Positions 34,207 to 39,626 of a stretch of 49,374 nucleotides of DNA are shown here, in pieces. The stretch is from Rhizobium sp. Q54 (GTDB lineage Bacteria > Pseudomonadota > Alphaproteobacteria > SMXS01). The position numbers and the translations under genes are program-made. Numbering within the stretch: the stretch's first letter is position 1; each line of letters opens with the position of its first letter. The stretch is taken from positions 1 to 49,374 of the forward strand of contig CAMDTB010000020.1 in the NCBI GenBank assembly GCA_945907245.1. The letters are read 5' to 3'. The notes beneath the pieces are model-generated. The model did no database searches, was not told the origin of the DNA, and saw only the letters and a program-made list of their open reading frames with translations.

Positions 34207-35403
34207 CTAAGCCGATATATGCGACATCGCCTGATCCAGATCTTCGATCAGGTCCAGAGGATCCTCCAGGCCGACCGACAACCGCAGCGTGCCCTCGACG
34301 ATGCCCAGCTCCAGCCGGGCCTCCTCGGCGAGCGACCGGTGCGTCGTGCTTGATGGATGGGTCATCAGGCTCTTGGCGTCGCCCAGATTGTTGGAGATGT
34401 CGATGATCCGCAGCGCGTTGAGCAGCCGGAACGCGGCGTCACGCCCGCCCGGCACGTCGACGGTGATGACGCTGCCGCCGGCTTTCATCTGGCGCATGGC
34501 GAGCGCATGCTGCGGATGGTCCTTTCGGCCCGGATAGAGCACCCGCGCCAGCCTGCCGCTGTCGGCGAGGAAATCGGCCACCTTCGCGGCGTTCTCGCAC
34601 ATCCGGGTCACGCGCAGGTCCAGCGTCTCGAGGCCCTTGAGCATGATCCAGGCGTTGAACGGGCTCATGGTCGGGCCGGTGTGGCGCAGATACTGGTTCA
34701 GGTGGTCCTCGAAGAACGTCTCGTCGCACAGGATCACCCCGCCCAGCGCCCGGCCCTGGCCGTCGATGTGCTTGGTGCCGGAATAGACCACGACATCGGC
34801 GCCGTAGTCGGTCGGCCGCTGCAGCAGCGGCGTGGCGAACACGTTGTCGACGATAACCGTGGCGCCGACCGCGTGCGCCGCCTTGCAGACATGCCCCAGG
34901 TCGACCACGTCGAGCGTGGGATTGGCCGGCGTTTCCACGAACACGGTCCTGGTGCCGGGCGTGATCGCGCGGCTCCAGGCGTCGTTGTCCGATCCCGTCA
35001 CCAGCTCGGTGGTGATGCCGAAGCGCGGCAGGATCTGGTCGAGGATGTAGCGACACGAGCCGAACAGCGCCTTGGCGCCCACCACCTTGTCGCCCGCCTT
35101 GAGCTGGCACATCAGCGCGGCATTGACCGCGGCCATGCCGGTCGCCGTCGCCTTGGCCACGGGCAGGCCCTCGAGCAGCGACATGCGTTCCTCGAACATG
35201 GCGATGGTCGGGTTGGACAACCGCGAATAGGTAAAGCCGTCGGCGGTGCCGGCGAAGCGGTCGGCGGCGATCTCGGCCGCGTCATAGCGGAAGCCGGAGG
35301 TCATGAAGATAGCTTCCGACGTCTCGCCGAAATTCGATCGCTTCGTGCCGCCGCGCACCAGCCGGGTCGCCAGCCGCCAGTCGGAGGGTTTCTTCTCGGT
35401 CAT
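34207..35403 (-). CDS. metZ: O-succinylhomoserine sulfhydrylase
   Basis: A 398-residue PLP enzyme of the Cys/Met metabolism family. Key segments are [22 protein letters not shown], the aspartate of [13 protein letters not shown] that binds the pyridine nitrogen, and the PLP lysine in [18 protein letters not shown]. The ending [19 protein letters not shown] is typical. It makes homocysteine from O-succinylhomoserine and sulfide in methionine synthesis. A cystathionine gamma-synthase role is possible within the family, but the [15 protein letters not shown] start and SAM-II control match MetZ. The start at 35403 follows the SAM-II/terminator leader. Confidence 0.93.
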
Positions 35404-35481
35404 GACCTTGCGTCCTTCTCGCTTCTCTCCATCGCGTCGGCGAGGAAATGGTACGGCGCGTACATCGCATCCGCCCAAAAC

Positions 35482-35511
35482 AAAAAACCCCGACCAAAAC
35501 GGGTCAGGGTT
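35482..35511 (-). terminator. Intrinsic terminator downstream of the SAM-II aptamer
   Basis: On the minus strand, AACCCTGACC and GGTCGGGGTT form a 10-bp stem (one G-U pair) with a short loop, and the stem runs into TTTTTT. It follows the aptamer by nine bases and precedes metZ by about 80, the layout of a transcription-attenuation switch. It also ends any transcript from the kinase gene. Confidence 0.85.
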
Positions 35512-35520
35512 CGCGCCCGA

Positions 35521-35572
35521 CCGTTTAGCTGTTTGTTTAACGTGGCCGCAAGCTGGTCGCCAAATCACCACG
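35521..35572 (-). promoter_or_regulatory. SAM-II riboswitch (metA-type) before metZ
   Basis: On the minus strand the conserved SAM-II elements occur in order: CGTGGTGATTTG, then GCTTGCGGCCACG, then TTAAACAAA and GCTAAA. CGTGG pairs with CCACG to form the P1 stem, and the GCTAAA segment is the pseudoknot partner. SAM-II RNAs occur mainly in alphaproteobacteria upstream of metA, metZ and metX genes and lower their expression when S-adenosylmethionine is abundant (family knowledge). The aptamer begins only ten bases beyond the upstream kinase gene's stop codon. Confidence 0.92.
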
Positions 35573-35581
35573 GGCCGAGTG

Positions 35582-38005
35582 TTAGGCGTTTTCCTCCGCC
35601 GGGTCAAGCAGCCGGCGAAGCTGGACGGCCAGCTCCTGGTTGCGGAACGGCTTGCGCAGCACCGGCGCATCGACGCCCAGCTGGCCCAGATGGTCCATGG
35701 CGTTCTTGGGGTAGCCCGACATGAACAGCACCTTCAGGCCGGGCCGCAATTCACGGGCCTGGACCGCCAGCTTGTCGCCGTAGATGCCACCCGGCAGCAC
35801 CACGTCGGTCAGCAGCAGGTCCACGTCGTGCTCGGGCAGGACCTTCAGCGCCTTCACCGCGTCGTCGACCGGCACCACCTCATAGCCCATGCTCCGCAGC
35901 CGGCGCACCAGCAGGTCGCGCACCGCGGCGTCGTCCTCGACCAGCATGATGCGCTCGCCCTTGCCGCTGTGCTGGGCGTCCGGTTTCCTCGCGTTGCTCG
36001 CGGTCCCGGTCGTGTCGCGGTAGCTCGGCAGGTAGAAGATGATTCGCGAGCCCTTGCCGGCCTCGCTCTCGGCCTTGATGGCGCCGCCGGACTGGCGCAC
36101 GAAGCCGTAGGCCATGCTGAGGCCCAGGCCGCTGCCGCGGCCGGTGTCCTTGGTGGTGAAGAACGGCTCGAAGATGCGGTCCAGCACCTCGGGCGACATG
36201 CCCGAGCCGGTGTCGCACACCTCGATCGTCACGTAATCGCCGGCGGACAGCGGATCCTTGCCGGCCACGGTCTCGGCGGCGAAGCGGTCGTTGCGCGTGC
36301 GGATGGTCAGCAGGCCGCCCGACGGCATGGCGTCGCGCGCGTTCAGCGCCAGGTTGAGCATGACGGATTCGAGCTGGGACGGATCGACCCGCACCAGCCA
36401 GGGATCGTCCTCCAGCTCGCGCCTGACCTCGATGCCGTCGCCCAGCGAATGCTCGAGGATCTCGCTCAGCCCGGCGATCAGGATGTTGACGTCGACGATC
36501 TTGGGCGACAGCGCCTGGCGCCGCGAGAATGCCAGCAGCCGCTGGATCAGCAGCGCGCCGCGCTCGGCGGCGTTGAGCGCCTTGCGCAGCAGGTCGCGGC
36601 TGTTCCGCGGGTTTTCGATGATCGTCTCGTCGGCCAGTTCCATGTTGCCGATCATCACCGCCAGAAGGTTGTTGAAATCGTGCGCCAGGCCGCCGGTGAG
36701 CTGGCCGACGCTTTCCATCTTCTGCGCCTGGAACAACGCGTCGGCGGCGTCGATCTGCTCGGTGATGTCGGTGCACGCGCCGCGGTAGCCCAGGAACTCG
36801 CCGCGGTCGCCGAAGATCGGCTTGCCGCTGGCCATCAGCACCTTGCGCTCGCCCGACATGGTGGTCACCGGCACGCGGACGTTGCGGTATGGCTCGCGCC
36901 GCGCGATATGCTCGAGCAGTTGCGGCCAATCGGCCTCGGTGGCGTCGCTCACCTCGTCCCTGAACGCGACGCGGCCCAGCAGCAGCTCGGTCTGGCTGCC
37001 GACGAAGTCGGCGAAGCGCTCGGACACGTATCGCAGGCGTCCGCGCGCGTCGGTCTCGAAAAAGAAGTCGCTGGCGCTGTCGGCGATATCGCGCAGCCGC
37101 CGCTCGCTGTCGATGACCTCGCGCTGCATGCGGCGCATGGCGTCCATGGCGGCATGGAGCAGCAGGGCCGTCAGCGTCGACAGGATGCAGAACGACGTCA
37201 GCGTCGTCCATTGGCCGCCTGCCGAAAAGGCATGCAGCGGACCGGCGCCCTGCGCGGTGCCGAACTGCGCGAACACCAGCGAGAACGCGATCAGGATGCC
37301 GACGCCCAGCAGGTTGAACCGCACCGCCATCCACGCCAGCAGCGGGAACTGGCTGACCACTATGGCGAGCTGCACCGAATTGGGCAGGGTTGGCATGTTG
37401 ACCGCCAGCGCCGACAGGGCCTTGATACCCATGATCGCGCTGAACTCCAGCCAGCGGAGCGGCCGCAGGGCGATCGGCCGGCGCAGCGCGATGCCCATGA
37501 CCAGCGGCACCAAGGCGAAACTGCTGAACAGGCAGCCCAACCCGCGCCCCAGGACGATCGCGCCGGGCCCGACGTCCGGGCGGTCGACGACCGGCGACAT
37601 GAACAGCAGCCCGTCGCCCAGTGCCGCCATCAGGCACGCGCCGGGCACGATGAGGCCCATCAGCAGCCCGACGTCGCGGAACCGGTCCAGCCCCGCGCCC
37701 AGCCCCACCCGGCCTGCCACCCAGGCGCCCGCCAGGGCGGCACCGGTGCCGGTGGCGCCGGTGGCGACAGCGGCCGCGGGGCCCAGGCCGGCAAGCATGG
37801 CGCCGGCCACCCAGCCGATCAGGACGCCCGGCCAGACCACGCGGCCATAGGCGATGACACCGCCGAGGGCGATGCCCATGGGCCACCAGGTGGCCGGCGC
37901 CACGGTGCTGGAAATCGAATAGAGATGGCTGGTGGCGGCGATCGCCGCGCAGACCAGCGCGATGATCGCGGCCCTGGCCGCCTCAGCCGAAGTTCTTGGA
38001 AACAT
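35582..38005 (-). CDS. MASE1-like hybrid histidine kinase with receiver domain
   Basis: An 807-residue membrane sensor from ATG 38005; TTG 38056 or GTG in between would add up to 17 residues. Residues 1-300 contain about eight hydrophobic helices in MASE1 style (ATWWPMGIALG, CLFSSFALVPLVMG). A PAS domain follows at 305-430, then HisKA with the phospho-acceptor His442 in GLAHDFNNLL. The HATPase has NARDAMPSGG, GSGMSPEVLDRIFEPFFTTK and GSGLGLSM. A REC domain carries the phosphorylation Asp734 in LLLTDVVLPGG. It senses an unknown signal at the inner membrane. No separate regulator gene adjoins it. It lies just upstream of the SAM-II-controlled metZ gene. Confidence 0.9.
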   Translation of the reverse strand: MFPRTSAEAARAAIIALVCAAIAATSHLYSISSTVAPATWWPMGIALGGVIAYGRVVWPGVLIGWVAGAMLAGLGPAAAVATGATGTGAALAGAWVAGRVGLGAGLDRFRDVGLLMGLIVPGACLMAALGDGLLFMSPVVDRPDVGPGAIVLGRGLGCLFSSFALVPLVMGIALRRPIALRPLRWLEFSAIMGIKALSALAVNMPTLPNSVQLAIVVSQFPLLAWMAVRFNLLGVGILIAFSLVFAQFGTAQGAGPLHAFSAGGQWTTLTSFCILSTLTALLLHAAMDAMRRMQREVIDSERRLRDIADSASDFFFETDARGRLRYVSERFADFVGSQTELLLGRVAFRDEVSDATEADWPQLLEHIARREPYRNVRVPVTTMSGERKVLMASGKPIFGDRGEFLGYRGACTDITEQIDAADALFQAQKMESVGQLTGGLAHDFNNLLAVMIGNMELADETIIENPRNSRDLLRKALNAAERGALLIQRLLAFSRRQALSPKIVDVNILIAGLSEILEHSLGDGIEVRRELEDDPWLVRVDPSQLESVMLNLALNARDAMPSGGLLTIRTRNDRFAAETVAGKDPLSAGDYVTIEVCDTGSGMSPEVLDRIFEPFFTTKDTGRGSGLGLSMAYGFVRQSGGAIKAESEAGKGSRIIFYLPSYRDTTGTASNARKPDAQHSGKGERIMLVEDDAAVRDLLVRRLRSMGYEVVPVDDAVKALKVLPEHDVDLLLTDVVLPGGIYGDKLAVQARELRPGLKVLFMSGYPKNAMDHLGQLGVDAPVLRKPFRNQELAVQLRRLLDPAEENA

Positions 38006-38112
38006 CGCGCAAACCGCTACCCGGCGCCCATTCACGGTGCTGTTGGCAACCCGCAACCCTCACCCATCATAAGGAAAATCCGCCCGGGTTGGGGAATAAA
38101 TCGCGCACCGGC

Positions 38113-38946
38113 TCAGGGTGGCGGCGGACGCGCCGGCGGCGGATTGTGCAGCGTGTGTTCGGTCAGCGCCAGCTGGACGCCCTCGTCGTCGAACCGCTGC
38201 TTCAGCCGGGCGACCAGATCGTAGCGGAAGCCCAGATAGTCCAGGCTGTTCACCCAGACGCGGATGATCACCTGCACCGCCAGGTCGCCCAGCGCGCCGG
38301 CCACCACCTGCGGTTCGGGCTTCGCCAGCGGGCGCGGGTCGGCGGCGATGGTGTCGCGGATCATCGCCAGCACCGCGTCCAGCCGGTTGCCGTAGCCGAT
38401 GTTGACGATCACTTCGACCCGCCGCGTCCTGTGGGCGCTGAAGTTCTTGATCGCCGCGCCCCAGACCATGCCGTTGGGCAGGAACAGCTGCACGTTGTCG
38501 GCCATCGCCAGCTCGGTGGCGAACAGGGTGATCGCCCGCACCGTGCCGGCATGGGCGCCGACCTCGATGTCGTCGCCCACCCGGAACGGCCGGAACATCA
38601 GCAGCATGACGCCCGAGGCGAAATGGCTCAGCGTTCCCTGCAGCGCCAGGCCGATGGCGATGGACGCGGCGCCCAGGACGGCGATCAGGCTGGTGGTCTC
38701 GACCCCGAACTGGGAGAGCACCGCGATGATGGTGAAGGCCAGGATCGCCCAGCGCACGAAGCTGGCGAGGAAGGTGGTCAGCGTCGGGTCGAGCTTGCTG
38801 GCCCGGCGCGACAGCCGCATCATCGCCCGCCCGGCCCAGGACGACGCTAGCCAGCCGACGATCAGGATCACCACCGCGCCGATCAGCTTCAGGCCGTAGA
38901 CCGTCAGCAGCGTCGTCGTCGATCGGATGATCTCGTGCATGTCCAT
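38113..38946 (-). CDS. mscS: Small-conductance mechanosensitive channel (MscS)
   Basis: A 277-residue channel with three N-terminal transmembrane helices. The pore-lining helix is AVLGAASIAIGLALQGTLSH, with the Gly/Ala packing pattern and the QG kink of MscS. The cytoplasmic domain begins FRPFRVGDDIEVG, then NVQLFLPNGMVW and the lower beta/alpha portion. It opens on membrane tension and protects cells in osmotic downshock. The length is close to Escherichia coli MscS (286). The C-terminus is Pro-rich. It follows no clear operon partner; the kinase gene starts 107 bases downstream on the same strand. Confidence 0.94.
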   Translation of the reverse strand: MDMHEIIRSTTTLLTVYGLKLIGAVVILIVGWLASSWAGRAMMRLSRRASKLDPTLTTFLASFVRWAILAFTIIAVLSQFGVETTSLIAVLGAASIAIGLALQGTLSHFASGVMLLMFRPFRVGDDIEVGAHAGTVRAITLFATELAMADNVQLFLPNGMVWGAAIKNFSAHRTRRVEVIVNIGYGNRLDAVLAMIRDTIAADPRPLAKPEPQVVAGALGDLAVQVIIRVWVNSLDYLGFRYDLVARLKQRFDDEGVQLALTEHTLHNPPPARPPPP

Positions 38947-39226: not shown

Positions 39227-39300
39227 GCGGGTGTAGCTCAATGGTAGAGCAGAAGCTTCCCAAGCTTACGACGAGGGTTCGATTCCCTTCACCCGCTCCA
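39227..39300 (+). tRNA. tRNA-Gly (anticodon CCC)
   Basis: A 74-base tRNA with a seven-pair acceptor stem (GCGGGTG with CACCCGC), a D arm GCTC-AATGGTA-GAGC, the anticodon loop TTCCCAA with CCC at 39259-39261, and a T arm GAGGG-TTCGATT-CCCTT. The discriminator is T and CCA is encoded. The bottom pair of the anticodon stem (27-43) is a G-A mismatch. It reads GGG codons. Confidence 0.95.
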
Positions 39301-39305
39301 GTTTC

Positions 39306-39626
39306 CTATTTGATCTCCACCATGATTTCCCGGTAACGGCCGGCGCCGACGTTCTTCGCGTCGTGGGTCGTCGGCGTGCTCAGGCCGCCGGAGGTGGCGA
39401 TGCCGTCCCGGATCTCGAAGAAGAAGGTGTCGTCCGGCTGCAAGGTGATCTCGGCGGCGTTCTCGCCGTTGCCGTCGGTGGCGCGCAGGGTCGAGCCTTC
39501 GATCACATGCACGATGTAGCTGAGCTCGTGGCGGTGCACGCCGGTGCTCTCGCCGGGCTCGAGCAGCAGCTCCCAGACGATGACCTTGTCGTTCTCCAGC
39601 AGCTTCTTGGTCGCGACCTCGGCCAT
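39306..39626 (-). CDS. Cupin domain protein
   Basis: A 106-residue single-domain cupin. The first cupin motif is GESTGVHRHELSYIVHVIEGS, with His-x-His-Glu as probable metal ligands; the second motif is LQPDDTFFFEIRDG. Small cupins bind a metal ion and range from isomerases to signal-binding domains (family knowledge). The reaction cannot be assigned. A GGGAGG site lies upstream of the ATG. It ends six bases from the tRNA-Gly gene, which reads on the other strand. Confidence 0.85.
   Translation of the reverse strand: MAEVATKKLLENDKVIVWELLLEPGESTGVHRHELSYIVHVIEGSTLRATDGNGENAAEITLQPDDTFFFEIRDGIATSGGLSTPTTHDAKNVGAGRYREIMVEIK

Follow-up and report, generated by a model that had tools for sequence, protein, structure and literature searches.

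The switch ahead of metZ in Rhizobium sp. Q54 is most probably a standard transcription-terminating SAM-II riboswitch with a housekeeping promoter of its own, and this promoter would overlap the end of the upstream gene. The analysis covered a window of 49,374 nucleotides (contig CAMDTB010000020.1, positions 1 to 49,374), whose minus strand carries, in this order, the gene of a hybrid sensor histidine kinase, a SAM-II aptamer, a terminator and metZ. At first sight the switch lacks a promoter. This apparent puzzle is removed if the missing element is written into the last codons and the stop codon of the kinase gene, where the metZ promoter is very probably hidden. The coordinates of all features are listed in Table 1.

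Table 1. Features of the metZ switch and its surroundings in the window. Positions are those of the forward strand; paired segments are joined by "with".
Feature	Position	Strand	Evidence
Hybrid sensor histidine kinase	35582-38056	-	ORF list; Pfam; genus orthologues
-35 element CTTGACC (hexamer TTGACC, 35607-35602)	35602-35608	-	alignment of class loci; family comparison; codon use; trained matrix
-10 element TAACAC	35579-35584	-	family comparison; trained matrix
Predicted metZ transcription start, about 35573 (first bases of P1)	35571-35575	-	deduced from position of -10 element
SAM-II (SAM_alpha, RF00521) match	35505-35581	-	68.9 bits
Aptamer P1	35572-35567 with 35546-35541	-	covariance-model alignment
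Aptamer pseudoknot, main part (CGACC/GGUCG)	35559-35555 with 35522-35518	-	read from sequence; family comparison
Aptamer pseudoknot, second part (AGC/GCU)	35554-35552 with 35529-35527	-	read from sequence
Predicted antiterminator GGUCGGG/CCUGACC, one G-U pair (35522-35516 with 35508-35502)	35502-35522	-	hairpin of terminator scan; pairing tests
Intrinsic terminator, hairpin 35512-35485 plus T-rich tail	35477-35512	-	terminator scan; -17.3 kcal/mol
21-codon ORF, in-frame paiB-like remnant, stop overlapping the metZ start as ATGA	35400-35465	-	comparison with intact relatives
metZ, regulated gene	34207-35403	-	PF01053 (Cys/Met metabolism PLP-dependent enzyme), 398 aa

The Rfam covariance model RF00521 was run over the whole window and matched the switch at full length (model positions 1-79 of 79), scoring 68.9 bits where the gathering score is 36, with an E value of 1.6e-13. 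This match (35581-35505) was the sole one found in the genome assembly, which is 98.3% complete, and the same search yielded matches in 0 of 14 control genomes. Both P1 and an H-type pseudoknot P2 closed by a 3' strand can be read from the sequence, and a GGTCG complementary to the pseudoknot loop occurs in nine of nine family members examined. The aptamer and the methionine gene that follows it have the same orientation. For the switch as a whole, single-strand folding was no better than that of shuffled sequences (z -0.62) under a fold model that does not include pseudoknots. The sequence comparisons confirm that the SAM-II switch before metZ is real and of an ordinary type.

These results bear on most of what the first-pass annotation had stated. 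The SAM-II riboswitch it proposed was confirmed by the covariance-model scan, which it had itself suggested, and metZ as the target agrees with the PF01053 gene at 34207-35403 on the minus strand. The aptamer had been placed at 35521-35572; the upper end is correct, since P1 begins at 35572, whereas 35521 splits the pseudoknot strand and 35518 is the better lower limit. The distance of ten bases from the kinase stop codon was right to a base, nine bases (35581-35573) separating stop and P1. The proposed terminator (35482-35511) coincides within a few bases with the hairpin 35512-35485 and its tail. The name metZ for the PF01053 gene was adopted from the same annotation; like paiB for the PF04299 gene and mscS, folE and argE for neighbouring genes, it serves as a label, whereas the Pfam families were assigned by the scans.

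Switches of this kind also occur in relatives. In the order to which this genome belongs, RF00521 matches with E <= 0.001 were found in 10 of 10 genomes, nine of which pass the cut-off, and a class-wide draw gave matches in 155 of 289 genomes (138 above the cut-off). From these, a set of 115 loci was compiled that consists of the better-scoring matches, so weak matches are under-represented, and to which some genomes contributed two switches; the locus L040 (genome G009, 26.1 bits, below cut-off) was excluded. A metZ-like gene lies downstream of the switch in 103 of the 115 loci.

Between the aptamer and the start codon of metZ lies an intrinsic terminator, as is expected of a transcription-terminating SAM-II switch. 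Its hairpin of 11 pairs (35512-35485) is followed by TTTGTTTT. A predicted antiterminator would exclude both the pseudoknot and the terminator, as its CCUGACC strand (35508-35502) is part of the terminator 5' arm. At low SAM, GGUCGGG (35522-35516) would pair with CCUGACC, the terminator would be blocked and metZ would be transcribed. Upon SAM binding, the pseudoknot would hold GGUCG with CGACC (35559-35555), which would leave the hairpin free to form; at high SAM, transcription would then stop at about 35480 and yield an RNA of about 90 nt. With -17.3 versus -9.7 kcal/mol, the terminator of the window is far stronger than the antiterminator. Switching must therefore be kinetic, or leakage must be low.

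The predicted antiterminator was assessed in those 91 of the 115 loci in which a script detected a terminator hairpin; the other 24 have no T-run or no hairpin by its rule. In some of these, such as L006, L017 and L061, there seems by eye to be a hairpin though the script called none. Pairing of the aptamer 3' strand with the terminator 5' arm had a mean energy of -11.85 kcal/mol, compared to -8.39 kcal/mol for shuffled arms, and the lowest value of 200 shuffles was -9.06 kcal/mol. When arms were swapped between loci, the value was -11.02 instead of -11.85 kcal/mol; one of 5000 permutations was as good, with relatedness between loci uncontrolled. The gain of own over swapped partners is significant but small. 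Within the family, the seven-base pairing of GGTCGGG with the terminator arm is kept in nine of nine members examined, G-U pairs being allowed. Of the 14 loci whose pseudoknot strand is variant, 13 retain five or more pairs in the pseudoknot, whereas five or more contiguous antiterminator pairs are found in eight; the six with fewer count against the antiterminator. The pseudoknot is therefore better backed by covariation than the antiterminator.

The first-pass annotation had seen no room for a separate promoter between the kinase gene and the switch. This was wrong: a promoter-like site, CTTGACC-N17-TAACAC (35608-35579, minus strand), overlaps the final eight codons of the kinase gene plus its stop. 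The promoter seemed to be absent because a gap had been sought. The CTTGAC of the -35 element codes for Leu-Asp near the C-terminus of the kinase, the first three bases of the -10 element are the stop codon TAA (35584-35582), and the spacer between the two elements comprises 17 nt. Of the two alternatives considered in that annotation, the first, which places the metZ promoter within the kinase gene, has good sequence support from its rank in a trained matrix, from conservation and from the usual position of SAM-II promoters. According to the part of Corbino et al. (2005, PMC1273637) that treats these elements, near-consensus -35 and -10 sequences a few nucleotides before P1 are usual for SAM-II.

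The matrix was trained on 83 SAM-II promoters, all from outside the family of Rhizobium sp. Q54. When both strands of the window were scored (98,666 positions), the site at the kinase end ranked first with 18.1 bits; the next position reached 14.8 bits. In the class, relative to a conserved ATTTG, an exact TTGAC is present between -70 and -31 in 96 of 113 loci (L053 and L113 were omitted from the count, their upstream sequence being short), and 90 of the 113 carry it between -48 and -41; it is absent from the -70 to -31 interval in 17. Two upstream control stretches contained TTGAC in two and one of 113 loci, respectively, and the opposite strand in one of 113. Compared with the promoter consensus CTTGAC-N17-CTATAT given for Sinorhizobium in PMC2873474 (S. 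meliloti), an alphaproteobacterial housekeeping type, CTTGAC is exact and the spacer of 17 nt fits, and the -10 element TAACAC is weak, with three of six matches to TATAAT. A generic sigma-70 scan is stricter, as it requires a T at the sixth -10 base and nine of 12 matches; around the switch it detected no minus-strand promoter, and the class-trained matrix was used in its place.

Comparison with relatives gave further evidence for a promoter at this place. CTTGAC-N17-TAAC is present in all eight family members displayed (G000-G007). Six of them (G000, G001, G003, G004, G005 and G007) end the kinase gene with the TAA of the -10 element; the remaining two (G002 and G006) do so with the TGA inside TTGAC. 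In genome G008, a gene other than the kinase lies upstream (no match), and the promoter reads CTTGACC-N17-TATGAC. Among relatives, the promoter is thus constant while the end of the kinase protein shifts. The kinase homologue of G007 (locus L037) aligns to that of the window over residues 19-679 only and may lack the receiver domain; its end is still CTTGAC-N17-TAAC.

Codon use at the kinase end is less telling. The Leu codon CTT within the -35 element (codon -9) is used for four of the 104 leucines of the kinase and is kept in five of five comparable genomes. This alone is weak evidence, because a second CTT four codons earlier (codon -13) is also kept in four of the five. Over these five genomes, 8 of the last 15 kinase codons are identical, versus 9 of 15 for codons -30 to -16. 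Synonymous constraint was therefore rejected as sole proof of a promoter, since conservation at the kinase end does not exceed that of the codons immediately preceding it.

The kinase itself comprises PAS, HisKA and HATPase_c domains and a receiver domain at residues 703-811 of 824, as judged by Pfam, so its C-terminal tail lies outside the receiver domain; a MASE1-like match stayed below the cut-off. The extent of the gene is that of the longest ORF, with a TTG start assigned by rule. Among the 80 listed of 594 matching stretches, named genomes contributed only distant relatives, whose identity did not exceed 49% and covered part of the protein. Eight of the 115 loci were found to contain kinase-like sequence, all from the own family and as a rule about 1-1.5 kb upstream of the switch.

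Elsewhere in the class, the switches and their promoter sit behind unrelated genes. Ten upstream ORFs that end near the -35 element were selected and checked in Pfam, and eight could be assigned: an epimerase, three radical SAM proteins, a dihydroorotate dehydrogenase, two metallophosphoesterases and an FtsJ. Six of these eight loci (L006, L008, L028, L046, L090 and L099, from six other families) use the TGA within TTGAC to terminate the upstream gene. An ORF whose stop lies inside the -10 element and whose coding score is at least 0.25, by a crude measure of GC content per codon position, was seen in six loci of the own family only. Because other genes precede the switch class-wide and the kinase does so only in this family, promoter and switch are presumably older than their kinase neighbour, and we infer that the kinase gene came to overlap a pre-existing promoter. 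The six loci with TGA in the -35 element suggest that SAM-II promoters may determine where the preceding gene ends, irrespective of its identity, with the -35 element doubling as gene end. A promoter search limited to non-coding gaps would miss such promoters, or would misread the switches as read-through attenuators.

A separate question is whether transcripts of the kinase gene also reach the switch. On the minus strand between 35350 and 38300, a terminator scan detected no terminator-like site besides the terminator and antiterminator hairpins of the switch. By anatomy, the metZ terminator may therefore also end kinase transcripts: polymerase leaving the kinase gene must cross the switch, with no earlier terminator-like site in the scanned stretch. 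It is conceivable, and we hold it tentatively, that both routes operate, the own promoter being dominant and the SAM-gated terminator at the same time ending the kinase mRNA. This is compatible with a promoter-driven metZ switch, and the sensor kinase mRNA end would be tied to SAM if such read-through mattered. Against its importance stands that any effect on the kinase protein would go through the mRNA 3' tail only; a transcript of kinase and metZ that is cut in response to SAM would by itself change nothing but this tail. SAM-gated read-through is possibly a minor route, which is not needed to explain the expression of metZ.

In an elaboration that we regard as unlikely, two RNAs would pass through the switch, the short SAM-gated RNA from the embedded promoter and a read-through RNA from the kinase gene that meets the same terminator. 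On the latter, a ribosome stopping at the kinase TAA would lie against P1 and hinder folding of the aptamer. If this were true, the kinase-derived expression of metZ would be governed by translation of the kinase and would respond less to SAM, and the operon of a membrane sensor kinase would be coupled to methionine synthesis.

Quite improbable is that most metZ expression comes from read-through of a kinase or mscS-kinase transcript, with the switch acting as an operon attenuator that also ends the kinase mRNA, so that SAM sets the degree of co-transcription. Kinase and switch do lie on the same strand with 9 nt between stop and P1, the only terminator-like hairpins in 35350-38300 are those of the switch, and the order mscS-kinase-switch-metZ recurs in the relatives whose contigs extend to mscS (G002, G003, G005, G006 and G007). 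However, the best-scoring promoter site of the whole window sits at the kinase end and persists in relatives in which the kinase ends elsewhere, switches of the class carry a promoter behind unrelated genes, and among the 115 loci kinase-like sequence turned up in only eight, all of one family. Hardly credible, finally, is a switch that acts mainly on translation and whose terminator-like hairpin is incidental: some SAM-II switches are translational (metA of S. meliloti, as stated in a part of PMC9373788), but here more than 100 nt separate the end of the pseudoknot strand (35518) from the metZ ATG (35403), a strong hairpin and a T-run lie between them, and the terminator arm and the pseudoknot strand are complementary.

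The preferred reading is thus a promoter-driven, terminating switch, with transcription predicted to start from the housekeeping promoter at about 35573. The segment between its terminator and metZ differs among the relatives. Five members of the genus (G002-G006) carry a full gene at this place, which we take to be paiB-like; the two copies that were scanned (from G002 and G005) belong to PF04299. Loci L032, L033 and L034 hold intact copies. The copies in G002, G003 and G004 are 204 codons long, their stop and the metZ start overlapping as ATGA. Compared to these three, the window lacks 549 nt, which is exactly 183 codons, and both ends of the gene are kept; the distance from terminator to metZ is 92 in the window versus 641 in the three genomes. 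Because the in-frame loss preserved both ends and the ATGA overlap, the sequence suggests that translational coupling to metZ has been retained after the loss of 183 codons. G001 (L031) is without the paiB-like gene, has a terminator-to-metZ distance of 100, and no corresponding 21-codon ORF was found there; only a fragment similar to the end of the gene (SEKDA) seems to be left, and the difference in length is not divisible by three. In G007, where the distance is 30, no paiB-like match was found.

For the metZ switch of S. meliloti, Scheuer et al. (2022, PMC9373788) describe a SAM-II element whose terminator is predicted to depend on SAM; the RNA, RZ, measures about 100 nt and is more abundant at high SAM. 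The two systems share the aptamer before metZ, the predicted terminating platform and an own promoter, and the terminated RNA predicted for Rhizobium sp. Q54 is of similar length (about 90 nt versus about 100 nt for RZ). In Q54, the putative promoter lies within the kinase end, and a 21-codon ORF precedes and overlaps metZ. Corbino et al. (2005, PMC1273637), in the portion dealing with the SAM-II/metA class, report that many elements have putative terminators located after P2 and ahead of the gene; terminators and the near-consensus promoter a few nucleotides before P1 are shared with Q54, whereas an overlap of the promoter with upstream coding sequence, as seen in Q54, is not mentioned in that portion. 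A metY/metZ-type target is also shared with the SAM_alpha regulons of Rhizobiales and Rhodobacterales in the main text of PMC4239095, which contains neither paiB ("paib", 0 occurrences) nor a sensor kinase as neighbour (the one occurrence of "kinase" is aspartate kinase). A search of a literature library retrieved no paper joining "SAM-II riboswitch" with "histidine kinase", and a search on riboswitch promoters that overlap an upstream stop codon gave none on that subject, as judged by the opening lines of the abstracts; one paper it listed, PMC4824070, deals with terminators near a gene end. On comparison of the sequences, the metZ switch of Q54 appears to be a known kind of system in which the overlap of promoter and gene is unusually tight.

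Elsewhere in the window, a tRNA gene was detected at 39227-39297 on the plus strand (RF00005, 69.3 bits). It adjoins a small ORF with a cupin domain (39306-39626), which is encoded on the opposite, minus strand.
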